From NCBI GenBank assembly GCA_001880285.1, contig CP016269.1:1374501-1438500 (forward strand): a stretch of DNA of 64,000 nt. The letters run 5' to 3'. Positions within the stretch are counted from its first letter, which is position 1; every line of letters begins with the position of its first letter. Below, in pieces: positions 448 to 42,269 of this stretch. The position numbers and the translations under genes were made by a program. This DNA is from Flavobacteriaceae bacterium UJ101. Its GTDB lineage: Bacteria > Bacteroidota > Bacteroidia > Flavobacteriales > UJ101. Under the pieces are notes generated by a model. The model saw nothing but the letters and a program-made list of their open reading frames with translations. It was not told the DNA's origin and ran no database searches.

Positions 448-1029
448 TTATTTTACAACAAATACAACATTAATCATAGAACAATCAGAAGTTGGAGTAC
501 CGATAACATCATAAGTCATAACTCCTGATCCATCAATACTTTTTATGGTTAAAACAGCTGTGTCATATGCTGTTACATAGTATTCTAAAGCTGTTTTGGC
601 ATAGGTTGGGATACTCCCAGAAGAACCTGTACTTGAAACAGCAGGAGTTGTAAACTCTGTTTGGTAAACAGAATGGAGATCTAAGGTTTTGTCAGTTCCC
701 GTTTCACTTACATCCAAAGCTAAAGCGGGTGGATAAAATATTTTCACCGTAGGTTCTGCTTCTGAAATAATACATTCCCATTGAGGTAAAGCCGGTGTTC
801 CAATATTTTGCTGAATGCATTTTTCGGTCGTATTAAAAAGAGTCAAACCGGTTGCAGGAGTGTTAATGTCTGCCACATTTCCGGTAGTTAATCGAGGTAA
901 TAAAATTCCTTTTGTTGAACTATTGATATCAAGTACAGAACTAGCATCAGGGGTATTTGTATTGATACCAACTTGTGCTAACAAATTCATACTTAATAAA
1001 ATATATAGTAAAATATAGATTTTTTTCAT
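448..1029 (-). CDS. Small secreted VGINT-family protein (193 aa)
   Basis: Signal peptide MKKIYILLYILLSMNLLAQ is followed directly by VGINTNTPDASSVLDI and STKGILLPRLT. This N-terminal module is common in secreted Bacteroidota proteins and also begins the 750-aa neighbour upstream and the six paralogs at 37.5-42.3 kb. A second conserved stretch (GLTLFNTTEKC...WECI) has two Cys that could form a disulfide. The C-terminal half is beta-rich and has no recognised enzyme motif or sorting domain. It lies between the 750-aa protein (upstream, 216 bases away) and the Ca-repeat protein (7 bases downstream). The function is unknown; a structural or adhesive surface role is only inference. Confidence 0.8.
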   Translation of the reverse strand: MKKIYILLYILLSMNLLAQVGINTNTPDASSVLDINSSTKGILLPRLTTGNVADINTPATGLTLFNTTEKCIQQNIGTPALPQWECIISEAEPTVKIFYPPALALDVSETGTDKTLDLHSVYQTEFTTPAVSSTGSSGSIPTYAKTALEYYVTAYDTAVLTIKSIDGSGVMTYDVIGTPTSDCSMINVVFVVK

Positions 1030-1160
1030 TGGATTAATTTTAATGTTGTCAATTTTATAATTGAAAAACCCATTACTGTGCGTTTAGTATAAGTGAGTTA
1101 ATGAGTTTAAAAGACAAGTAATATTATCTTTTAGGTTAATTATCACAGTAATGAGTTGAA

Positions 1161-1183
1161 AGGAGCAGTAGAAAACTGCTCCT
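1161..1183 (-). terminator. Hairpin after the 750-aa surface protein gene
   Basis: Arms AGGAGCAGT (1161-1169) and ACTGCTCCT (1175-1183) form a 9-bp perfect stem with a 5-base loop. It lies 60 bases beyond the stop of the gene at 1246. The tail read on the minus strand is only weakly T-rich, so it may be a partial terminator or a processing element. A second, longer-range pair CATTACTGTG (1071-1080) and CACAGTAATG (1144-1153) lies in the same spacer. Confidence 0.5.
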
Positions 1184-1245
1184 CTCCATGAACATGAAAA
1201 AATTATATCATGTACAAGTGGGGTTTGTTAAATTATAGGGGGTTA

Positions 1246-3498
1246 TTAATTGTGTAATTTGATCCATCCAGTAGATTTACAACCGTAGAAATTGTCTCCT
1301 GAAAATGTAATTGTTCCTACATTTGGGCAGCTTCCTCCTTCTGTTATGGTTGCTCCAGTACCTTTTACTTGTATATTTCCTTCTACCGTTAATTTTTGAG
1401 CTGGGCTAGCTGTACCAATACCAACATTTCCTGTATCACCTTCTATAATCATTTTTGTATAGGCATCTGTATTTACTTGAGTATCCCCTGCTACAGTAGC
1501 TTCTGTAGAGAAAAATCGAATATCAGAATATTTACCTGTATCAGAAACTCCTCCAACTATCACACCGGCTAATCCTCCTGTTACATTGGTATCACCTGTT
1601 ATTTTTCTTGCTGCAGCATACACTTTGTTGTTATCTGTATTCGTTGAACTTTCATCATTTTTTGCATAAACACTTCTTCCAATCACAACAGAAGCTCCAC
1701 TTCTTGTTGCTCCAACATAACCATAACCTGTTCCTCCACCTAAACCAATAGAACCTCTTAAAGTAGAACTTCCTATTTGTAAAGAATATTCAGGTTTATA
1801 ATCATTATAGACAAAATTAGAACCTCCATTTAAAGCCATTCGATCATTATGAATTACATCTCCTTTCTCAGAGTATAATGCCCAGTTAATATCACTTGCA
1901 TCCTCAACACTTCCAATCGTTATTCCATATTCATTTTCAAGGGTTGCTGTACTATTACCATTTTTACCTGTGCTAACTGATAGACCTCGCTGCTTCTTAA
2001 TAGTTCCACTAGCATTTTCTTCTATAAAAGTGGTAGCTACAATAGCTATTTGATTGTTAATGTTTGCATCTCCTTGAACACGAGCGTGTGAATAACCACC
2101 ATATAAAACATCAAGAGTTCTACCATTTGTTGACAAATCGTAAGCCCTATTTTCATTTCCGTATACAGCTGTAATTTCACCTGTTGCACCATCCTCAATT
2201 TGTGCAATATTAAAGTTTCCTCTAATTGAAGTACTAGGAGCTGCACTATTATAATAAACAGCATTCTCACTACCTCTAACTTCTGGAATTCTATCCGTTT
2301 TGTCTGTTCTGATATATACAGCGTTTCGATTTCCTTTCACAGATGAAGAGGTTCCTTTATTAAGATATAAACTATTATTAGTTCCAATCAATGTATTTAC
2401 CTTAACATCCGAATCAACAGTTGATAAATCATAACTTCCATACAAATGATTTATTTCTTTATCAGCTAAATTTGTATTACCACTTATTATTTGAGTTACA
2501 TTTTCATCTCCTCTCACATAAGTAGGAACATCAGTAGCTGAATTAGTTACTCTTGTATAATTTTCTATACCTCTAAGATATTTCAACTTACCGCCATAAT
2601 GATATGAGTTATTTAAGGTTCCTGTTACAAAACCATTTGCAGAAGCTGCATTAGTAGAAGAGTTAATTGCATAATTTTGAGCCCCAACTAATCGAATAAA
2701 TGAACTTACATCAAAAGCATTGACATAATTTCTTCCTCCATAAAAATTACCACTACTATTATCTGCTGAACTACGTAAATACAATTCATTATTCCCTCCA
2801 TAACCATAAGTTGCTTTTGAAGTTCCATTCACATGCAATACATTTTCATTTGCTTTTGCAACCGATACAGTTGAACTTCCAGCTAAAAAGAAATCATTAT
2901 TTAGTCCACGCATAGTTCCTCTAGTACCTGATCCATTATCAATCAACAAATTACGAGCACCATCATAATTTCCATAATTTAGTTCTGAACCACTTGGTAT
3001 TTGACGATTATAATAGCGTCCTCTAACGGGTGTTGTTACATTTTCTGTTGCAGCATCAATTGAGTTAATGGCATAGGTAGCATCTTTATATACTTTAATT
3101 GAGCTACCTGTAGGACGAATCGCATACGTATAATCTTGTTGAAGACCATTCCAATCTTCAGCTGTAGGTTGATATTGCCATTCTGATGTATTCGTATCAA
3201 ATGGTTTCCAAGTTGTGCTAGCATGATCATAATAATAATATCCTACCGTTGTTACATCAGAAGTACCTGCTTCAGTAGCATACGCTATCATAGAATTATG
3301 CGAAGCATCTAAATTATCTTTCATTGTTTCTAAGGCAGCACCTGTTAATCGAGGTACCATAATCCCTTCGGCAGTAGAGCCATCTGTGTTTTTTGCTGTA
3401 ATATCCAAAGTTGATTTTGGATTATCGGTATTAATCCCTACTTGTGCATACATACCTAAACTTGCTACGAATAGCAAAGAAGTCATTCTTTTTTTCAT
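1246..3498 (-). CDS. Large secreted VGINT-family surface protein with internal repeats (750 aa)
   Basis: The start is set at ATG 3498 (MKKRMTSLLFVASLGMYAQ, a good signal peptide); a longer frame to 3564 would add 22 unlikely residues. Mature protein order: VGINTDNPKSTLDI and GIMVPRLT module; a middle part with about 11 degenerate repeats of the form [VLI]-x-G-x-x-N-x-x-x-[VIY] (for example VRGSENAVYY, VKGNRNAVYI, VRGDENVTQI), roughly 2075-2915; then a Gly-rich part and a C-terminal NVGIGTASPAQKLTVEG segment like those preceding the end domains of phage tail fibres and other Bacteroidota surface proteins. Two Cys (GSCPNVG, FYGCKS) are near the end. It is probably a fibrous or solenoid surface protein; the ligand is unknown. 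It may be controlled by the LuxR-type regulator upstream. Confidence 0.8.
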   Translation of the reverse strand: MKKRMTSLLFVASLGMYAQVGINTDNPKSTLDITAKNTDGSTAEGIMVPRLTGAALETMKDNLDASHNSMIAYATEAGTSDVTTVGYYYYDHASTTWKPFDTNTSEWQYQPTAEDWNGLQQDYTYAIRPTGSSIKVYKDATYAINSIDAATENVTTPVRGRYYNRQIPSGSELNYGNYDGARNLLIDNGSGTRGTMRGLNNDFFLAGSSTVSVAKANENVLHVNGTSKATYGYGGNNELYLRSSADNSSGNFYGGRNYVNAFDVSSFIRLVGAQNYAINSSTNAASANGFVTGTLNNSYHYGGKLKYLRGIENYTRVTNSATDVPTYVRGDENVTQIISGNTNLADKEINHLYGSYDLSTVDSDVKVNTLIGTNNSLYLNKGTSSSVKGNRNAVYIRTDKTDRIPEVRGSENAVYYNSAAPSTSIRGNFNIAQIEDGATGEITAVYGNENRAYDLSTNGRTLDVLYGGYSHARVQGDANINNQIAIVATTFIEENASGTIKKQRGLSVSTGKNGNSTATLENEYGITIGSVEDASDINWALYSEKGDVIHNDRMALNGGSNFVYNDYKPEYSLQIGSSTLRGSIGLGGGTGYGYVGATRSGASVVIGRSVYAKNDESSTNTDNNKVYAAARKITGDTNVTGGLAGVIVGGVSDTGKYSDIRFFSTEATVAGDTQVNTDAYTKMIIEGDTGNVGIGTASPAQKLTVEGNIQVKGTGATITEGGSCPNVGTITFSGDNFYGCKSTGWIKLHN

Positions 3499-3979
3499 AA
3501 ATCCCACGTTTATTTGTTTGTTATTTTTTTTAAAATCATATTTACCGTTCGTCGATAAATACATGGCAAATAACCAAAATGTTTGACTTATAATAAAAAA
3601 ATCAATACCTGCATAGACCCTGTATTTTATAACCTACATAACTTATTGATTATTAAATATTTATATTATTATCGAAGGGCTTTTTAACTGAAGTGCAGGG
3701 ATTGTGCAGGGGTATTATTTTCTTAACCAAATGTTAATTCTATATTTTAAATTAAGAAAAAACCTAAATAAATGTTAAAACGAAGTTTATAATCTTTATA
3801 AATGAAAGATTTTAGAGAGATATATAGATTCTTAATAAGGCTTCATCTTCTATTTTTATATAGAAGACTGTACTAGATACCATAATTTGTTTACTTTAAC
3901 AACACAGAAATATTTTACCTAAAATTTTATATAAACTAAAGAGTATTCATTTTCAATTTTAAGTATAATAAAAATAAAA
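3499..3979. promoter_or_regulatory. 481-base AT-rich upstream region of the surface-protein operon
   Basis: No gene was found. The minus-strand promoter of the 750-aa protein must lie here. Two elements stand out. At 3545-3560 the minus strand reads ATTTATCGACGAACGG, nearly shared with 21609-21624. At 3693-3714 an 11-base direct repeat (GTGCAGGGATT then GTGCAGGGGTA) is spaced one helical turn apart. Related TGCAGG/CAGGG words occur at about 3608-3625 and 4733-4739. These are candidate regulator-binding sites; none is proven. Confidence 0.45.
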
Positions 3980-4513
3980 TCAGGAAACATTTTTTAATTG
4001 ATAAAAACCTATTTGAGGTGTAGTAGGTCTGAATATCATACCATTCTCTACTAAAGCAAAATCCAAAGATTCTTGAAGATGAGTTAATTCTTCACTTGTT
4101 AAATAAGATATAGTATGTTTAATTTTAACAACACCTGATTTTGACCGGTTAGATTTTAAAAATAAAACTACCTCTTTTTTTAAAAAACCTTTTTTAATTT
4201 GATATTGAACCAGCTTTTGTTGAGGAAACTCCGAACGTTTTTCATTTCTTACCCTTGTAAGATCCTGGTTTTTAAAGCATAAAACTCCTCCTTCTGAATC
4301 ATATTCAAAATTATAAGTACTTTTTACTCCTAAAAATAGAATCATACTAACAATAGGAATTGGAAAATAAAGATGAAAAGGAAATTTATTTAAAAGAGAA
4401 GGGTTTATAAATAAAGAAACTAAGATAATACCTGTACAAATACAAATGGTATAATAAAAAATGGTAAGGTAGAATCGAGCACGATAATTTTTTATTTTAA
4501 CTATTTTTTTCAT
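3980..4513 (-). CDS. Small two-helix membrane protein, unknown function (177 aa)
   Basis: I do not recognise a family. Start chosen at ATG 4513 (MKKIVKIKNYRARFYLTIF); the longer frame starts with GTG. Two hydrophobic helices lie near the N-terminus (FYLTIFYYTICICTGIILV and a second around LYFPIPIVSMILFLGV), followed by a soluble domain of about 110 residues with many Lys and Arg, likely cytoplasmic. This layout resembles small bacterial membrane proteins with a PH-like soluble domain, but that is a guess. It lies between the LuxR-type regulator (228 bases upstream) and the large surface protein, all on the minus strand, so it may belong to the same regulated locus. Confidence 0.65.
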   Translation of the reverse strand: MKKIVKIKNYRARFYLTIFYYTICICTGIILVSLFINPSLLNKFPFHLYFPIPIVSMILFLGVKSTYNFEYDSEGGVLCFKNQDLTRVRNEKRSEFPQQKLVQYQIKKGFLKKEVVLFLKSNRSKSGVVKIKHTISYLTSEELTHLQESLDFALVENGMIFRPTTPQIGFYQLKNVS

Positions 4514-4741
4514 AACACTATTTAAAATAGGGATTAAAAAAGGGGGTAAAGCCTTTCTATCGATCAAAAACACTATTTCATAGATTTTTTATACTAAATG
4601 AACTATGAATAGAATTAGGGTACTATAAAGTTTGAAAATAACTAGTGAAAATAAAAAAATGTGTCCTCTGCAAATCTTTTGCATTTAGAACAAGTTGTTT
4701 CATAAAGGGTTATAACTTAAATAAAGGGGGTTTGCAGGGTA

Positions 4742-6223
4742 CTAAATATTTTTTATCCATTTATTTAAATCGATAGCAGAATCTAGTTCAAGTTTTTTAC
4801 GTAATCGATAACGTTTACTTTCGACTGTTTTTATACTTACAAAGGTATATTGTGCTATTTCTTTAGAAGTAAAATTTAATTTGATTAAAGCACAAAATTT
4901 AATATCGTTTGTAGTTAATTTAGGTTGTCTTTTCAAGAGAGTATCTCTAAAATGAGGAAAAACTTTATTAAAAGTAGGTAAAAATGCTAAATCATTTTTC
5001 TTTGCTAATGCAACCAATTCTTTTACCTGATCAGCTGTTTTATCTTCTTGAACACTTTCTAGCTTTTTAGAAATCTCTTCTTGTTTTTGTTTTGATTTTT
5101 TACGGTTACGTTTAAAAAAGATCACTCCAATAATCATTAAACTTAAAAGAATGCCTAAAACAATCATAGAAATAAATTCATACTGATCTTGTTCCTCCTT
5201 AATTTCTCCTACAATTTGTTCATGAGCATCAATTCGAGCATGATTTTTAATACTATCTAAACTATGCTTTAAAGTAAAGTATTTTAATTCATACTCTTGA
5301 CTTTTAATACTATCGTTTAGTTTTTTATAATTATCCGCAATCTCTTTATATACAACCAGTTTATCATCATTATTTTTGGTTGAATCTAAAATGGCTAAAG
5401 TTTTAAATCGGTAATATAAAGCTGTTTCTAAATCATTTTTTGAAGCATAAGCATTTCCTAAGCTATGATAACCCAATAAATAACTGTTTAGATTATTGTT
5501 CTTTTTCGCAAAATCAACTAGAAGATTGGAATAATAGATAACAGAATCCGTATTGTTAGCTTCTGTATGGGCCTGAGCCAGATTTCCTAAACCTTTGATA
5601 TAATGAAAATTATAGCTCTTATTTGATTCTGAAATCTTTTTATAATATGAAAGTGCTTTTCTAGCAAAACTCAACATTTTGCTTTGTTCTTCAGGAGAAC
5701 TTTTATATAATCCATCATTATTCTTATTAATAATAATGTGCATTTTGGAAATGTAAGCATTACCCTTAAATTTATTAGCTTCATCGGATTCTTCATCTTT
5801 ATAAATTGACAATACTTCATTAAACGCATTTTCTGCATCGGTAACTAAATGAAGTTCATTATAAAAAGTTGCAAGTAACATTAAAGACATGGCCTTTATT
5901 GATCGGTTATTTGTCTTCTTTGCTGCGGTGACCATCTCTTTAACTCTATTAAGAGCTTCATTTATATTTCCTTGATTTTTTATAATTTGAACTGCTACAA
6001 TTTGAGCATTAACAAAAAGCTCATCATTTTTGGTCTTTAAAGCATATAAAACCAATTCATCACTAGTTTTTAAAGCTAATTCAGGATCAATATCTCTTAC
6101 ACTATCAATTAGGTTCAACTTTTTCTGCACATCAATTTCTTGTGAGAAAAACAACAAACTACTTAAAAAGAAAAAAGTGCTAAAAAAAATCTTATGATAC
6201 CTGTAATACATCAAAAATTTCAT
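4742..6223 (-). CDS. TPR / transmembrane / LuxR-type HTH regulator (493 aa)
   Basis: Order of parts: signal peptide (start at ATG 6223; a second ATG at 6211 is possible and the longer frame begins with TTG), a periplasmic helical region with tetratricopeptide-like repeats (about residues 30-330), one transmembrane helix (about 346-370, FISMIVLGILLSLMIIGVIF), a basic linker and a C-terminal helix-turn-helix of the LuxR/GerE type (about 434-480; FTSKEIAQYTFVSIKTVESK). This one-piece membrane-bound regulator architecture is common in Flavobacteria. It presumably senses something outside the inner membrane and acts on nearby promoters. The genes immediately downstream on the same strand (membrane protein, VGINT surface proteins) are the natural candidate targets; that link is inferred from position only. 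Confidence 0.85.
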   Translation of the reverse strand: MKFLMYYRYHKIFFSTFFFLSSLLFFSQEIDVQKKLNLIDSVRDIDPELALKTSDELVLYALKTKNDELFVNAQIVAVQIIKNQGNINEALNRVKEMVTAAKKTNNRSIKAMSLMLLATFYNELHLVTDAENAFNEVLSIYKDEESDEANKFKGNAYISKMHIIINKNNDGLYKSSPEEQSKMLSFARKALSYYKKISESNKSYNFHYIKGLGNLAQAHTEANNTDSVIYYSNLLVDFAKKNNNLNSYLLGYHSLGNAYASKNDLETALYYRFKTLAILDSTKNNDDKLVVYKEIADNYKKLNDSIKSQEYELKYFTLKHSLDSIKNHARIDAHEQIVGEIKEEQDQYEFISMIVLGILLSLMIIGVIFFKRNRKKSKQKQEEISKKLESVQEDKTADQVKELVALAKKNDLAFLPTFNKVFPHFRDTLLKRQPKLTTNDIKFCALIKLNFTSKEIAQYTFVSIKTVESKRYRLRKKLELDSAIDLNKWIKNI

Positions 6224-6543
6224 ACTAAATTTAATAAAATGTTTGTAATGCAATAGTGTTTATATAGAATTAGCAATTTAATAGGAAATTGGTACTTACG
6301 CAAGGCAATGGAGGGGTTTTTAGATAAAAAATATAATAAAGTACCACAAGTGGTGTGAAAAGCACTTCATTATCAAATGTTTTTACAAAAAATTAAATCA
6401 TGACTAAAAATATTTTAAAGTAGCTCAAAAAGACAATAAACTAACAAAAATCAATAAAAACACTTCTTTTATATTAGGGAAAAAAAACTTACATTTGAGA
6501 GATTTAAAAATAATATATTAATAAATATTTAAGAATTTAAAAT
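6224..6543. promoter_or_regulatory. Divergent spacer between the LuxR-type regulator and hppA
   Basis: This is a 320-base AT-rich spacer with no gene. On the plus strand TACATTTG at 6490-6497 fits the Bacteroidota -7 box TAnnTTTG and would start an hppA message with a leader of about 45 bases. No clear box could be assigned for the minus-strand gene. Confidence 0.55.
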
Positions 6544-35479: not shown

Positions 35480-35617
35480 TATTTTTTCAGTTAATTGGTA
35501 TATTTTATCATAAAATTCACTTTACAATACTTACTGAAAAAAATGGAAGATTCATAATAAAAATACATACATTAACTGAAAAAATTAGTTTAAAGCATTT
35601 AAAAATAAGTATTTTTG
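35480..35617 (+). promoter_or_regulatory. lytS upstream region with three copies of an ACTGAAAAAA motif
   Basis: ATTTTTTCAGTTAAT (35480-35494) and ATTAACTGAAAAAAT (35571-35585) are perfect 15-base inverted copies. A third direct copy TTACTGAAAAAAAT starts at 35531. The last lies just before TATTTTTG (35610-35617), a TAnnTTTG box. Because the box abuts ATG 35621, the message is probably leaderless or nearly so. Candidate binding sites for the regulator itself. Confidence 0.55.
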
Positions 35618-35620
35618 ATT

Positions 35621-36631
35621 ATGCGTTTTACATTACAACACTTTTACATTTGGCTTCTATATGGATTATTTTTATTTGCTATTTTTTTACTTTTTACAGA
35701 TTATACAACCGCATTTATCAATGTAGCAGTTACTTTATTTATACAAATTGGTATTTATTATATTAACTTATACCTTATTATTTCTTCTTTCTATGAAAAA
35801 AAACGTTACTTCTATTATATATTTATAAATATTCTATTAATCATTGTAAGTTTTTTTGTAAGTGAAATAGCTGAAGAATTAAATGAAATGTTTATAGAAG
35901 TGATAGAATCAGAACACTACGAAAATTATAACCCTAAAGCTCTTATTTCTCATACTATTCCTAGTTTACTTTCTATTTTTGCTAGTTTTTTCACCTACTC
36001 TTATTATAAACAAAATCAAGAAGAAAAAAAGAAATTAGCCATTCTAAGTGCTGAAAAGAATTTCTTAATCCAACAAATTAATCCACACTTTCTTTTCAAT
36101 ACATTGAACAATATATATTCTCTTTCATTGGACCATGATCCTAAGGGACCTGAGGCTATTATGCAACTATCTAAAATGTTAGATTATTCATTATATGGTG
36201 GTAGAAAAGGAAAGGTTACTTTACAAAACGAAATTAAATATATTCAACATTTTATCGACCTGTTTAAACTTAAAGATGAAGACATTCAAAATATTAAATT
36301 TGATTATAGTGAAGCTGACGTAAACAAACAAATTGCACCTATGTTATTAGTTCCTTTTATTGAAAATGCTTTTAAACATGGTAATATTGAATCTTCTCAA
36401 GAGAATAGTTTTATTAAAATCACATTAAAAACATGTGATGACTATTGTATTTTTAATTGTGTCAATACTTATTCTATTAGAAAATCCGTTGATCATATAG
36501 GAGGAATAGGAGTTCAAAATGTAAGTAGACGATTAGAACTTCTATATCCTAAAAAACACAACTTAAAAATTGAGCAAAACGAAAAAGAATATTCTGTTTC
36601 ATTAAAAATAGCCCTAAATGAAAACACTTAA
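35621..36631 (+). CDS. LytS/YehU-type sensor histidine kinase
   Basis: About four transmembrane helices form the N-terminal sensor (MRFTLQHFYIWLLYGLFLFA onward, to about residue 130), followed by the His_kinase domain with phospho-acceptor His in FLIQQINPHFLFNTLNNIYS and the ATP-lid motifs VPFIENAFKHGNI and GGIGVQNVSRRLELLYP. Length 336 aa. A TTG at 35615 is less likely than ATG 35621. The stop overlaps the response-regulator start by 14 bases, which shows a matched pair. It presumably regulates the six secreted proteins that follow or the peroxidase operon that diverges from it. Confidence 0.92.
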   Translation: MRFTLQHFYIWLLYGLFLFAIFLLFTDYTTAFINVAVTLFIQIGIYYINLYLIISSFYEKKRYFYYIFINILLIIVSFFVSEIAEELNEMFIEVIESEHYENYNPKALISHTIPSLLSIFASFFTYSYYKQNQEEKKKLAILSAEKNFLIQQINPHFLFNTLNNIYSLSLDHDPKGPEAIMQLSKMLDYSLYGGRKGKVTLQNEIKYIQHFIDLFKLKDEDIQNIKFDYSEADVNKQIAPMLLVPFIENAFKHGNIESSQENSFIKITLKTCDDYCIFNCVNTYSIRKSVDHIGGIGVQNVSRRLELLYPKKHNLKIEQNEKEYSVSLKIALNENT

Positions 36632-37322
36632 ATGTATTATCATTGATGATGAAAAACCAGCACGAAGACTTATTGAAAACTATTGTAACCGAATAGAGTT
36701 AGATGTTGTAGGTGATTTTAAATCTCCATTAGATGCTTTACCTCTATTAGAAAGCAACACTATAGATTTAATATTCTTAGATATTCGTATGCCTGAAATT
36801 TCAGGGATTGATTTTTTAAAAACTTTAAATCATAAACCGTATATTATATTAACGACGGCATATCGAGAATATGCTTTAGATGCTTTTGAATTAGATGTTA
36901 CCGATTATTTATTAAAACCCATTGAATTTCCTCGTTTTTTAAAAGCAATTAATAAAATTCAAAAAAAGCCTGTACAAGTTTATCAAGAGCTAACAGAACC
37001 TGAAAATAAAAACCAATTCATTACAGTCAAGTCCAACAAAAGATTATATAAAGTACCTTTTGAAGATATTTTATACATTCAGTCAGATAATGAGTACATT
37101 ACATTTGTTACCCAATCTCATGGTAAGCTAATGGTACATGGTGCATTAAAAAATATAGAAAAAGAATTACCTTCAAGCTTTTGGAGAATACACCGCTCTT
37201 TTATCATTAATTCGCTTCATATTAGATATGTTGAAGGAAACCGCGTTCTCATTCAAGATAGTCCTTTAACAATTAGTGAATCATACCGGAAAACTTTTTT
37301 TGAACATTGGAATACATTATAA
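36618..37322 (+). CDS. LytTR-family response regulator
   Basis: An N-terminal receiver domain has the acidic pair IIIDDEKPARR, the phospho-accepting Asp in LIFLDIRMPEISG and the Thr/Lys positions TTAYRE and YLLKPIEF. The C-terminal LytTR DNA-binding domain is clear (VPFEDILYIQSDNEYITFV then FWRIHRSFIINSLHIRYVEG). These regulators bind pairs of direct repeats about 21 bases apart. It is translated with the LytS kinase by a 14-base overlap. Immediately downstream lie two copies of TATATAAAAAAGA spaced exactly 21 bp, then the paralog array. Confidence 0.94.
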   Translation: MKTLKCIIIDDEKPARRLIENYCNRIELDVVGDFKSPLDALPLLESNTIDLIFLDIRMPEISGIDFLKTLNHKPYIILTTAYREYALDAFELDVTDYLLKPIEFPRFLKAINKIQKKPVQVYQELTEPENKNQFITVKSNKRLYKVPFEDILYIQSDNEYITFVTQSHGKLMVHGALKNIEKELPSSFWRIHRSFIINSLHIRYVEGNRVLIQDSPLTISESYRKTFFEHWNTL

Positions 37323-37574: not shown

Positions 37575-38282
37575 ATGAGAATATTTAAAATTTTATTATT
37601 AGTAGTATTGAATACTCTGATTTATCCTCTTAACGGACAAATAGGTATTGGAACCCATTCACCCGATAATTCTACGGTTGTTGATATTGTTGCTTCAGAT
37701 AAAGGTATTTCTCTTCCACAAATCCAATTAATTTCAGAAAATGATAAAACCGTTATTCCCAATCCAAAAAAAGGATTGCTCATCTATAATAACGGAACTT
37801 CTTTACCTGAAGGTATTTATTATAATTCTGGAGATCCTTCTAGTCCTACTTGGACTAAATTAGATGGTATTAATTCATCGAGTGGCTCATTAGTTGCTAA
37901 AATACCTTTTTCTTTGGCTAGTCCTGATTCAGTAATTGAACTAGATGATATTCAAATTCGATATAATGCCAGTAAAGAAGGAGGCTATAGTCAAATAAAA
38001 TCAAGTAGTGGAACACTTTATCATTACAATACTTTTATAATGGAAAATTGGGTCAAAAGTGGATCAAAAGACGATGGTATGTATAATGCAGCTAGTAATA
38101 CTACCTGTACCATAAATGGATCTTTTGTGAATATATGTGAATTTACATCTATTGGATCTGCTAATGAATTCAACGATGTTTGGTTTTATATTGATGAAAC
38201 AAAAACCACTTATCATTATCGTGTTAATTTAGTTAAAGTCTCAAAAAAAATATACGCTTCTCAAATATTAGAAAAATTTTAG
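37575..38282 (+). CDS. Secreted VGIGT paralog a (235 aa)
   Basis: First of six tandem paralogs. Start at ATG 37575 (MRIFKILLLVVLNTLIYPLN); a GTG at 37560 is only a longer frame. After the signal peptide, GQIGIGTHSPDNSTVVDI, then KGISLPQIQLI, NPKKGLLIYNNG and EGIYYNSG form the conserved N-terminal module. The C-terminal domain has DDIQIRYNASKEGGYSQIKS, FIMENW, a Cys pair (TTCTINGSFVNIC) and the end SQILEKF. Closest to paralog d. Probably exported to the surface; function unknown. Confidence 0.8.
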   Translation: MRIFKILLLVVLNTLIYPLNGQIGIGTHSPDNSTVVDIVASDKGISLPQIQLISENDKTVIPNPKKGLLIYNNGTSLPEGIYYNSGDPSSPTWTKLDGINSSSGSLVAKIPFSLASPDSVIELDDIQIRYNASKEGGYSQIKSSSGTLYHYNTFIMENWVKSGSKDDGMYNAASNTTCTINGSFVNICEFTSIGSANEFNDVWFYIDETKTTYHYRVNLVKVSKKIYASQILEKF

Positions 38283-38334
38283 CTCAACTATTTTACATTA
38301 TCAACTATCTACATCTAACCCTAAAAATAAAACA

Positions 38335-39060
38335 ATGATTACATTCTATTTTAAAAAAATTACGTTTTTAACTTTCTCATTTCTTTTAGTATCATCCTTA
38401 TTACTTAATGCGCAAGTAGGTATTGGAACTAATACTCCCAATGAATCGTCTATTTTGGATATTGTGGCCTTAAATAAAGGAGTTTCACTTCCCAATGTTA
38501 ATATAACTTCAGAAAATGATAACATAACTGTTCCAAATCCTAAAAAAGGGTTAATCATTTTCAACGATGGATCTTCAATTCATGAAGGATTCTACTACAA
38601 TTCAGGAACTACCACAACCCCTAAATGGACACTTTTAAGTGCACATGATTCATCAAAAGGTTCTTTTGTTGCTAAAATTCCTTTTTCATTAGCAAATCCA
38701 AGTCATGTATTATCCTTAGGTGATATAGAAGTTCGATACAATGCAACAGGAATCAATGGTTATAGTCAAATACGATTTAAAAACTTAGCGCCAGGAGAAA
38801 CTCATAAATATGTTACATTTAATACAGAAAATTGGACACCTCCTTCTACTGGAAGATATAATTCAACCACAACATGTTTAGGAACCTCTTCTTTTACAAA
38901 TATTTGTGGATCTACAGAAATAAAACTGAACAAGGAGTTTAACTCTATTTTAATCTATATTTTCAAAGAAGGTGACTATAACGTCTATAACTACAAAATT
39001 AGCTTTATAACAAAATCCGATGGAAAATCTTATACTTCACTTATAATGGAAAAATATTAG
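38335..39060 (+). CDS. Secreted VGIGT paralog b (241 aa)
   Basis: Same plan as a: signal peptide (FLTFSFLLVSSLLLNAQ), VGIGTNTPNESSILDI, KGVSLPNVNITSEND, NPKKGLIIFNDG, EGFYYNSG. The C-terminal domain contains LGDIEVRYNATGINGYSQIR, RFKNLAPGETHKYVTF, TENW, a Cys pair (TTCLGTSSFTNIC) and ends in IMEKY. It is closest to paralog e, with which it alone shares the FxNLAPGE segment. Spacing from a is 52 bases; a CTAACCCTAAAA word precedes the ATG, as in the b-c spacer. Confidence 0.8.
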   Translation: MITFYFKKITFLTFSFLLVSSLLLNAQVGIGTNTPNESSILDIVALNKGVSLPNVNITSENDNITVPNPKKGLIIFNDGSSIHEGFYYNSGTTTTPKWTLLSAHDSSKGSFVAKIPFSLANPSHVLSLGDIEVRYNATGINGYSQIRFKNLAPGETHKYVTFNTENWTPPSTGRYNSTTTCLGTSSFTNICGSTEIKLNKEFNSILIYIFKEGDYNVYNYKISFITKSDGKSYTSLIMEKY

Positions 39061-39090
39061 TCCTTTTTATAACCCTAAAATCTCACATTT

Positions 39091-39798
39091 ATGTACTCTA
39101 AAAATTTTTACAATAGACAACACGTTATTGTCGTATTCATTACTCTAATATTCTGTGGAAAATTAATTGCACAAGTAGGTATTGGAACTTCAACACCACA
39201 CCAATCTTCCATACTCGATATCGTTGCCTCTAACAAAGGTGTCTCCTTCCCCAATGTTGAATTAACTTCTGAAAATGATACTAAAACAATTGAAAAACCT
39301 GAAAAAGGATTAATTATCTATAATCCAAACAGTTCACATATTCCACAAGGAATTTATTATAATGGAGGAACAACTACAGCACCTAATTGGTTAAAAATAA
39401 AAGGCTCTAGTTCTTCTGAAGGTGTTACTATAGCTAAACAAATTGGTGTCTATGGTGATGACAAAACAGTATCAATAGGAGATATTGAATTTCGAGTTAA
39501 TACTTCTAATACTCCACAATTTAGATCCATTGTAGGAAAAAACCTTACGTACGCTACTTTAGTTAAACAGTTTTGGGTTAGTAGTGATTCGGGGCGCTCC
39601 ACAGATACATGCTCAAACCAAACTCTACATCAAAATTTTAGGACTATCTGTGGAGCAAATGGCTCAAGTACAAAAGAACTTAATGATATTTGGGTTTTTA
39701 TTACAACAGATGGACATCAAGGAACTTATCAATATATTTTTAATTTACTTGAAATTGATGGTATAAAATACTTAGCTCAACTTGTAAAAAAATACTAG
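39091..39798 (+). CDS. Secreted VGIGT paralog c (235 aa)
   Basis: Signal peptide then VGIGTSTPHQSSILDI, KGVSFPNVELTSEND, PEKGLIIYNPNS and QGIYYNGG. Its C-terminal half differs from a, b, d and e: IAKQIGVYGDDKTVSIGDI, LVKQFWVSSDSG, a Cys pair (DTCSNQTLHQNFRTIC) and end LVKKY. It is closest to paralog f in that half. It ends the first triplet; a 274-base regulatory spacer follows. Confidence 0.8.
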   Translation: MYSKNFYNRQHVIVVFITLIFCGKLIAQVGIGTSTPHQSSILDIVASNKGVSFPNVELTSENDTKTIEKPEKGLIIYNPNSSHIPQGIYYNGGTTTAPNWLKIKGSSSSEGVTIAKQIGVYGDDKTVSIGDIEFRVNTSNTPQFRSIVGKNLTYATLVKQFWVSSDSGRSTDTCSNQTLHQNFRTICGANGSSTKELNDIWVFITTDGHQGTYQYIFNLLEIDGIKYLAQLVKKY

Positions 39799-40072
39799 GT
39801 TTTGTTCGTTTTTAAATCTAAAATAATCAAATAAGGCAAAAATCACTTATAAGTTATTAATAATCAATACATAACATAATGATGTATTATGGAATAAATA
39901 TGATATAAAAAACACCATTAAAGATTTACTCTTAGTTAATTGAATAGAATATTTTCATAGAATATATTATTTAAATCACTGATAATCAATATTTTAAATA
40001 TTTTGTTAAAATTTATTAATAAAATGTTAATTATCAGTGATTTAAATTTGCACCATAAAAAGTATTCTACAT
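39799..40072. promoter_or_regulatory. Spacer between the two triplets: 18-bp inverted repeat and -7 box
   Basis: ATTTAAATCACTGATAAT (39969-39986) and ATTATCAGTGATTTAAAT (40030-40047) are perfect inverted copies 43 bases apart. A diverged copy, AAATCACTTATAAG, begins near 39840, and AATCAAT follows both left-hand copies. The right arm overlaps TAAATTTG (40043-40050), a TAnnTTTG box, 22 bases before ATG 40073. A protein bound to the arm would cover the promoter. So the second triplet probably has its own controlled start. Confidence 0.6.
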
Positions 40073-40780
40073 ATGAAAAGACCACTAACAATTCAATTTA
40101 TATTGCTATTTTTTATTATTAGCAACATAAAAAATGCTCAAGTTGGAATCGGAACCCATACTCCTGATGAGTCAACTGTATTAGATATTAGCTCAAACAA
40201 CAAAGGTATTTCTCTACCTAATATCAATTTAACAGCAAAAAATGATTCTACAACAATTTCAAACCCAAAAAAAGGACTCCTCATTTTTAAACCATCTAAT
40301 GATTCCATTTCAGATGGATTCTATTATAATTCAGGAAATTCCACAGACCCCAATTGGCTTCACTTACATGGTTTATCTTCTTCAGAAAGAAAAACTATAG
40401 TCAAATTACCATTAGACAAAGTTAATAAAAATAATGTACTGATATTAAATGATATTGAAATCAGGTATAACCCCGATACCAAAACTTCTCAAATAAAATC
40501 TGTTACAGGTGATGAACTAATATACAATGTCTTCATCATGGAAAATTGGAAATGGGACGAAGGTGGGAGCGGTACCTTTCGAAATGCTTATTCAGGAAAT
40601 AATAATTGTAAAATAACAGGAACTTTTACCAATATATGCCGTGGTACAATGGTAAATACTACTAGAGGCACCAAAAGTGAAGCAAATGACTTTTGGATCT
40701 ATATTGGTGATGATACTTATCATTATTATTTCAGTTTAGTTAATGGAAATTATGCATCACTTATACTCGAAAAATTTTAA
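40073..40780 (+). CDS. Secreted VGIGT paralog d (235 aa)
   Basis: Signal peptide (QFILLFFIISNIKNAQ) then VGIGTHTPDESTVLDI, KGISLPNINLTAKND, NPKKGLLIFKPS and DGFYYNSGNSTDPNWL. The C-terminal half has LNDIEIRYNPDTKTSQIKS, FIMENW, a Cys pair (NNCKITGTFTNIC) and the end LILEKF, all closest to paralog a. Has its own promoter and begins the second triplet. Confidence 0.8.
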   Translation: MKRPLTIQFILLFFIISNIKNAQVGIGTHTPDESTVLDISSNNKGISLPNINLTAKNDSTTISNPKKGLLIFKPSNDSISDGFYYNSGNSTDPNWLHLHGLSSSERKTIVKLPLDKVNKNNVLILNDIEIRYNPDTKTSQIKSVTGDELIYNVFIMENWKWDEGGSGTFRNAYSGNNNCKITGTFTNICRGTMVNTTRGTKSEANDFWIYIGDDTYHYYFSLVNGNYASLILEKF

Positions 40781-40793
40781 AACAATACAAATT

Positions 40794-41516
40794 ATGTCTA
40801 TTTTACCCCTAACCAAATCAAAAATAAATCTTTCACTACTATTTTTTCTACTATTTTATGTTTTCAAAGCACAAATAGGTATTGGAACTAAACTACCTCA
40901 TGAGTCTACTATATTAGATATTGTTTCAACCAATAAAGGGATATCTTTACCCAATATTGAATTAACCTCTGAAAGTGATGTCACTACTATTACTAATCCC
41001 AAAAAAGGATTAATGGTCTACCATACTGCATCAAGTTCTAGTATTCTACCTGAAGGGATTTACTATAATTCTGGAGAATCAACAAATGCTATATGGACAA
41101 AATTCAACCCATATTCTAAATCACATTCATCAATTGTAACGCTACCCTTTTCTGCTAGTGATCCTTCTAAAACATTAGCTATAGGTGATATTGAAATTCG
41201 ATACAATAAAGCTACTCAATTTAATCAAATCAGATTCACAAACCTAGCCCCAGGTGAAAACTTAAAATACACTGTTTTTATTATAGAAAATTGGGAAGGT
41301 AGAGGAAATGGAGAAAGTGAGACTAGAGCAGGTACTTGTTCTGCTAAGGAAACATTTGATAATATATGCAATTCCACCAAGCAAGGTTTTGGAGAAAATA
41401 ATGAAATATGGATCTATGTTCTTAGAAATGGTATTTACTCTGCATATAGATATGATATAACTTTAATTAACATAAACAGTACATCTTTTGATTCCAAAAT
41501 AATTGAAAAATTTTAG
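40794..41516 (+). CDS. Secreted VGIGT paralog e (240 aa)
   Basis: Start at ATG 40794 (MSILPLTKSKINLSLLFFLL); a longer frame from 40743 overlaps paralog d. Mature part: AQIGIGTKLPHESTILDI, KGISLPNIELTSESD, NPKKGLMVYHTA, EGIYYNSGES. The C-terminal half has IGDIEIRYNKATQFNQIR, RFTNLAPGENLKYTVF, IENW, a Cys pair (GTCSAKETFDNIC) and end IIEKF. It resembles b in the C-terminal half, but its STNKG and GLMVYH N-terminal segments match f. Confidence 0.8.
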   Translation: MSILPLTKSKINLSLLFFLLFYVFKAQIGIGTKLPHESTILDIVSTNKGISLPNIELTSESDVTTITNPKKGLMVYHTASSSSILPEGIYYNSGESTNAIWTKFNPYSKSHSSIVTLPFSASDPSKTLAIGDIEIRYNKATQFNQIRFTNLAPGENLKYTVFIIENWEGRGNGESETRAGTCSAKETFDNICNSTKQGFGENNEIWIYVLRNGIYSAYRYDITLININSTSFDSKIIEKF

Positions 41517-41540
41517 TTCTTAACCCTCATCCCTATTATT

Positions 41541-42269
41541 ATGATAACATATAAATCCTTATTACATATTTTCATACTAACTTTTTATACCATAAGCTAT
41601 GCTCAGGTAAAAATTAGTACCTCAACTTTAGGATCTAATATTCCTCATGAATCGACTATATTAGATATGGTTTCAACCAATAAAGGTGTTTCTATACCTA
41701 ATATCGGATTAACTAATGAACACGATTCAACAACTATTAAAAACCCTAAAAAAGGATTAATGGTCTACCATCCTGGACATCGTTATTTAGCAGAAGGTGT
41801 CTATTATAATTCTAAAGATTCTAAAAACCCTCTGTGGGTAAAGATTGAGGCTCTTTCTTCTTATGAAGGAACTCCTTATTCTAAAAATTTAGGTCCTCAT
41901 GATAATAATAGAACCGTAACACTAGATCATATTGAATTCAGACTCATACGGGATAGTAAAGACAATAGACTTAGACCTCAAATTAAATCTACTACTGGAG
42001 CTGATTTAAAATACTCTGTAATAGCTAAGCAATTCTGGCTCAAAAGTGGAAGAGATAATCGAAGTACTAGAGCATCGACTAACCAAACCCTATCAACATC
42101 TTTTCAATGGATTTCAGAAGTTGACAGTTTACGTGATGATCTAAGCGAATTAAATGATATCTGGATTTACATTACAACTCCTGGTAAAGAAGGGACCTAT
42201 CGTTATACAACCAATGTTGTTTTAATTAATGGAATAACAGAAACTTCTCAAATTTTAAAAAAATATTAA
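41541..42269 (+). CDS. Secreted VGIGT-like paralog f (242 aa), cysteine pair lost
   Basis: Signal peptide (LLHIFILTFYTISYAQ) is followed by a changed start VKISTSTLGSNIPHESTILD, so the usual VGIGT motif is degenerate, with MVSTNKGVSIPNIGLTNEHD, NPKKGLMVYHPG and EGVYYNSKD after it. The C-terminal half (KNLGPHDNNRTVTLDHIEF, IAKQFWLKSGRDN, SQILKKY) matches paralog c, but the Cys pair is replaced (RASTNQTLSTSFQWISEV). Losing both cysteines together fits a lost disulfide. It is intact and ends at a strong terminator. Confidence 0.78.
   Translation: MITYKSLLHIFILTFYTISYAQVKISTSTLGSNIPHESTILDMVSTNKGVSIPNIGLTNEHDSTTIKNPKKGLMVYHPGHRYLAEGVYYNSKDSKNPLWVKIEALSSYEGTPYSKNLGPHDNNRTVTLDHIEFRLIRDSKDNRLRPQIKSTTGADLKYSVIAKQFWLKSGRDNRSTRASTNQTLSTSFQWISEVDSLRDDLSELNDIWIYITTPGKEGTYRYTTNVVLINGITETSQILKKY

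Follow-up and report, generated by a model that had tools for sequence, protein, structure and literature searches.

Among the described systems with which the present locus can be compared, C1q is encoded by three tandem paralogous genes, A, B and C, whose products join in one trimeric binding head. Conversion of N-terminal parts is usual in tandem gene families. The locus considered here lies in a window of 64,000 nucleotides (the whole stretch of DNA analysed, in which the coordinates of genes a to f are positions) from the 3.07-Mb single-contig genome of a bacterium of the order Flavobacteriales, to which Chryseobacterium also belongs. It consists of six intact genes, a to f (37575-42269), all on the forward strand and each encoding 235-242 amino acids (Table 1). 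The listed open reading frames of a and e start at a GTG (37560) and an ATG (40743), respectively, and were replaced by starts at an internal ATG fitting a signal peptide. From a to f the intergenic gaps measure 52, 30, 274, 13 and 24 bp, so that the array falls into two three-gene units, a-b-c and d-e-f.

Table 1. Features of the six-gene array and its surroundings (window positions), and order-conserved triplets at other loci.
Feature	Position	Strand	Remarks
LytS-type sensor histidine kinase (His_kinase PF06580)	35615..36631	+	upstream, co-directional; putative link to array
LytTR response regulator	36618..37322	+	ends 252 bp before a; putative link to array
a	37575..38282	+	unit 1, gene 1; signal peptide, VGIGT leader module, C-terminal beta-sandwich domain (modelled)
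b	38335..39060	+	unit 1, gene 2
c	39091..39798	+	unit 1, gene 3
Inter-unit gap, 274 bp	39799..40072	+	presumed promoter region of unit 2
Inverted repeat	39969..40047		28-nt arms, 93%, 23-nt loop; in the 274-bp gap
d	40073..40780	+	unit 2, gene 1; last third nearest to a by sequence
e	40794..41516	+	unit 2, gene 2; b is the C-terminal partner
f	41541..42269	+	unit 2, gene 3; c is the C-terminal partner; leader altered; without Cys
Triplets order-conserved between families	L076 7639-10109 + L093 6199-8660; L082 5707-8244 + L149 4023-6580		roughly 25-38% identity

Each of the six proteins starts with a signal peptide, continues with a leader module that runs for about 75 amino acids between [VI]GIGT and a conserved Trp, and finishes with some 135 amino acids that make up the C-terminal part. 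The original prediction of one plan shared by all six is borne out by the six intact co-directional genes and by 32 invariant columns among the 259 of their alignment, but the VGIGT motif itself is present in five of them only, a to e, f reading QVKISTSTLGS with an insertion at this place. As had been noted earlier, a to e keep a Cys pair that f lacks; f in fact contains no Cys at all. The pair is also missing in the Chryseobacterium relatives, but since f nests with c it is simpler to assume that f has lost it. The ending E/K-K-F/Y that had been claimed for all is indeed found in six of six, nearly all relatives ending in E-x-F/Y. Reading of a to f revealed no lipobox, the leaders of a to e finishing in ...(A/G)Q-[VI]GIGT, and none of the six proteins gave an NCBIfam match at E <= 1 to the type IX sorting domains TIGR04183 or TIGR04131. 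Neither the six proteins nor 18 leader modules had a match above the curated cut-off in Pfam or NCBIfam, a PDB sequence search returned no match to either protein part, and no work on the VGIGT motif was found in the literature.

Regarding the origin of the array, duplication of the whole a-b-c unit had been proposed, with the C-terminal parts pairing as a-d, b-e and c-f. Trees with FastTree bootstraps were considered alongside likelihood tests in which seven fixed topologies of a to f, without outgroup, were compared (AU test, 5000 replicates, a number that the program called few). For the six C-terminal parts alone, c+f was recovered with 100% and b+e with 84% bootstrap; with a Chryseobacterium outgroup the six formed one clade (99%), the best tree was ad/be/cf, and c+f, b+e and a+d received 100, 68 and 48%, respectively. 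Five of the seven topologies, namely four splitting a, b and c from d, e and f, plus ad/bc/ef, fell short of the best by 39-40 log-likelihood units and are rejected (AU p < 0.001); ad/be/cf was kept (AU p 0.20), 1.5 units below the best topology for the six alone, d,(cf),(a,(be)). The predicted pairing is thus clear for c-f (100% throughout) and b-e (68-84%) and weak for a-d (12-48%), owing to the mixed likeness of a, whose C-terminal part resembles b over its first third and d over its last. With all tested topologies that part a-b-c from d-e-f rejected, the proposed whole-unit duplication is upheld, and the descent of a-b-c and d-e-f from one three-gene unit is well supported by these sequence comparisons together with the spacing of the genes.

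The leader module has a different history. Here e and f group together (91% in the protein tree, 86% in the DNA tree) and ad/be/cf is rejected (AU p 0.03), while DNA identity between e and f reaches 78% in the leader as against 31-57% in the C-terminal part. Since the leader tree conflicts with the C-terminal tree, the leader has been exchanged between neighbouring genes, in agreement with the later conversion of the N-terminal parts of e and f that had been predicted. Duplication followed by leader exchange holds, as judged from the sequences, and is most secure for b-e and c-f. Regardless of how its products assemble, the locus is a clear example of whole-unit duplication with a leader in concerted evolution and diverging tips. 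The "undescribed secreted system" of the original prediction is apt insofar as no library describes the family, but many further VGIGT clusters accompany the array in its genome.

The relatives of the C-terminal domain bear on what the three-gene pattern means. In its own genome this domain is confined to a to f, and an initial contig scan with e as query found no relative; an order-wide sample of 396 genomes contains few other carriers. In Chryseobacterium it occurs in 21 of 173 genomes, mostly as one gene. Homologous three-gene arrays, whose gene order had been put forward as a check on the earlier proposal, are therefore not the rule elsewhere: the sole example, in Chryseobacterium sp. OV279, consists of three tandem genes that are mutually closest and form their own clade (100%), which indicates an independent origin. 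These observations are what would be expected of a plain expanded paralog family, in which a to f would be six secreted adhesin variants with separate, overlapping functions providing dosage or ligand diversity, and in which the three-gene pattern would be the mere footprint of one segmental duplication; the OV279 triplet would be another tandem expansion, and the exchange of N-terminal parts is of the kind usual in such families. We give this reading somewhat less than an even chance. Being single-copy in most Chryseobacterium carriers, the C-terminal family does not require three chains, and these relatives speak for homomers being able to function as well. As a separate observation, made by eye, the gene of Chryseobacterium sp. 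MYb7 (L072 5140-11302 / L090 1718-7880) lies between a ClpV-like gene (type VI secretion) and two near-identical Hcp-like genes.

The VGIGT leader also occurs apart from this C-terminal domain. A profile built from an 18-row alignment (two letters of row 1 are wrong, with an effect expected to be negligible) gave 82 matches in the 3.07-Mb genome, often in ordered triplets, and matches in 13 of 60 sampled genomes of the order. Many single VGIGT genes are also present in the same genome, as an expanded paralog family would predict. That reading nevertheless leaves unexplained both the occurrence of two separate whole-triplet duplications within one genome and the conservation between families of ordered triplets with differing C-terminal families. 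The second duplicated triplet (L080 2842-7511; G000:C1:2321841-2326510, reverse strand) is clearer than the first and reads A-B-C-A-B-C: counterparts are 73, 66 and 59% identical, the neighbours A, B and C are far less alike, and gaps of 2-23 bp inside the units and 367 bp between them reproduce the anatomy of the a-f array. Between families, the L076 triplet and that of G056 share the same gene order at 35, 38 and 37% identity, all other comparisons giving 25-33%, and the L082 triplet matches that of G030 position by position in order, with lower scores. A tally of arrays whose genes are similar in size, taken over six genomes and a single locus from each of two more, gave about 9 triplets, 4 pairs and 1 tetrad, together with two sextets of 3+3 genes; this excess of triplets is only suggestive because some arrays share ancestry. 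The ordered matches between families are stronger evidence than the counts and suggest that position in the set matters, and the fixed order and fixed number of members suggest three non-equivalent chains per structure, for which a heterotrimeric fibre would be the simplest form.

Leader-type modules also occur in other settings. Four-gene units, in tandem and elsewhere in the genome (L102 5028 to L103 14419; L105 7889-15287; L108/L109), begin with the gene for a secreted protein of 165-168 aa that carries two such modules; genes for large secreted proteins follow, the last with one module. In proteins of 2790, 1011 and 481 aa (L104 7914-16286, L106 3527-6562 and L107 4858-6303, respectively), all large and secreted, the module stands at the extreme C-terminus, before a short Cys-containing tail.

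With regard to expression, a TAnnTTTG box 30 bp before d, TAAATTTG (40043-40050), which we take to be of the Bacteroidota -7 type, overlaps the right arm of the inverted repeat. The hairpin was not found elsewhere among the stretches of the same genome that were examined, and a promoter sequence common to a and d was discarded, local alignment of their upstream regions being no better than that of shuffled sequences. VGIGT clusters repeatedly have as neighbours genes that encode TPR proteins ending in a LuxR-like helix-turn-helix: 12 of 27 such regulators (those outside profile construction) are no more than 3.5 kb away from a VGIGT gene, for 1.6 expected under random placement. An example of this wider association is found in the window itself (448-6253, reverse strand), where VGIGT genes of 193 and 772 aa adjoin a 503-aa regulator of this type. 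Together with the LytS/LytTR pair upstream of a, and with an operon of G012 (L100 2979-5901) in which a kinase-like and a LytTR-like regulator gene directly precede a VGIGT gene with gaps of 2 and 11 bp, such neighbourhoods would fit a switchable surface coat, the VGIGT proteins being outputs, or surface sensors, of adjoining TPR-LuxR or LytTR regulators and each cluster a regulated set. This is unlikely as the main account of the array: it is silent on what the VGIGT proteins do, and a to f have the LytTR pair but no TPR-LuxR gene. The LytTR gene before a is the only one of the eight in the genome beside a VGIGT cluster, so that the adjacency could be due to chance, and the idea that LytTR genes generally adjoin VGIGT clusters was discarded on the same count.

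As to the fold of the C-terminal domain, residues 110-240 of e are modelled as a beta-sandwich (block-mean pLDDT 72-94), the leader being of low confidence in this model. Fold searching of the PDB with the domain retrieved Ig-like domains with scores in the chance range, the top match being CsgC (Z 7.3 over 83 residues, 2.5 A, 12% identity; unrelated proteins reach 6-6.8). Structure prediction, which had been advised together with a fold search, provided a beta-sandwich, with PDB matches at chance level. A C1q/TNF-like jelly roll, expected from the idea of a trimer, was rejected, since the model is an Ig-like sandwich. Modelled alone, the leader module reaches pLDDT 80; no fold is claimed for it, because its best PDB Z is 3.0 and it has no BFVD match at E <= 0.001.

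In BFVD the C-terminal domain has nine fold matches at E <= 0.001 (E 5e-6 to 5e-4, probability 1.00), all to predicted models of phage proteins; one of these bears the name collagen-like, another the name tail fiber, and two belong to Tenacibaculum phages. The matches compare predicted monomers, with TM-scores mostly of 0.2-0.5. Such matches, and weak hits of relatives' leader modules in PHROG, including "tail fiber protein" at E 0.024, are what might lead one to regard a to f as remnant or domesticated phage tail-fibre genes, which we consider highly improbable: each of the six genes encodes a signal peptide of its own, those around them look like ordinary chromosomal genes, and tblastn against 50,697 phage records found no relative of the C-terminal domain or of the array's own leader module, the sole match being one of 54 residues to the leader of a Chryseobacterium relative. 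Because tblastn finds no phage relative of the C-terminal domain, the likeness to phage proteins is that of a shared fold, and descent is not implied.

Taken as two consecutive three-gene operons, derived by duplication of one unit and subsequent exchange of the leader, the array would work as follows. Each product would be secreted and two-part, with the VGIGT module followed by a variable C-terminal beta-sandwich, Ig-like in the model. The leader module, kept alike by gene conversion, may be the assembly or anchoring part, and the C-terminal domain an exposed binding tip. The products of one unit would then be non-equivalent chains acting together, most likely in a single tail-fibre-like surface fibre or adhesin that is hetero-oligomeric and probably trimeric; the second unit would supply a second variant of it. 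That the three chains of a unit join in one such heteromeric structure is put forward tentatively, as a possibility that falls a little short of even, about on a par with the plain paralog family; it agrees with the fold matches and with the recurrence of ordered triplets. In a wider form, ordered VGIGT triplets might be a general device of Flavobacteriales, in which a heterotrimeric fibre, often with a local regulator, gains new specificities through duplication of sets and leader conversion; this generalization is conceivable but rather doubtful. Should three members indeed form one structure, an organising rule and a testable function would be gained for a large class of surface proteins of Flavobacteriales that is as yet undescribed.

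Compared with known systems, a to f resemble C1q A, B and C in being three tandem paralogs per unit, but this is an analogy only, the present domain not being C1q-like in the model. The curli accessory proteins CsgC and CsgH have an Ig-like beta-sandwich in common with its model, at 12% identity for CsgC and with a Z-score within the chance range. Phage fibre proteins, such as the collagen-like protein of Escherichia phage BECP10 and the tail fiber of Aeromonas phage 65.2, appear from predicted models to share the C-terminal beta-sandwich (Foldseek probability 1.00); unlike them, a to f have a signal peptide, are encoded by chromosomal genes and come in three-chain sets, and there is no sequence similarity. 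The other three-gene VGIGT sets (L076/L093, L080, L081 and L082/L149) have in common with the array the signal peptide, the leader module and three tandem members, in an order that is fixed where testable, and combine these with C-terminal domains of other families.
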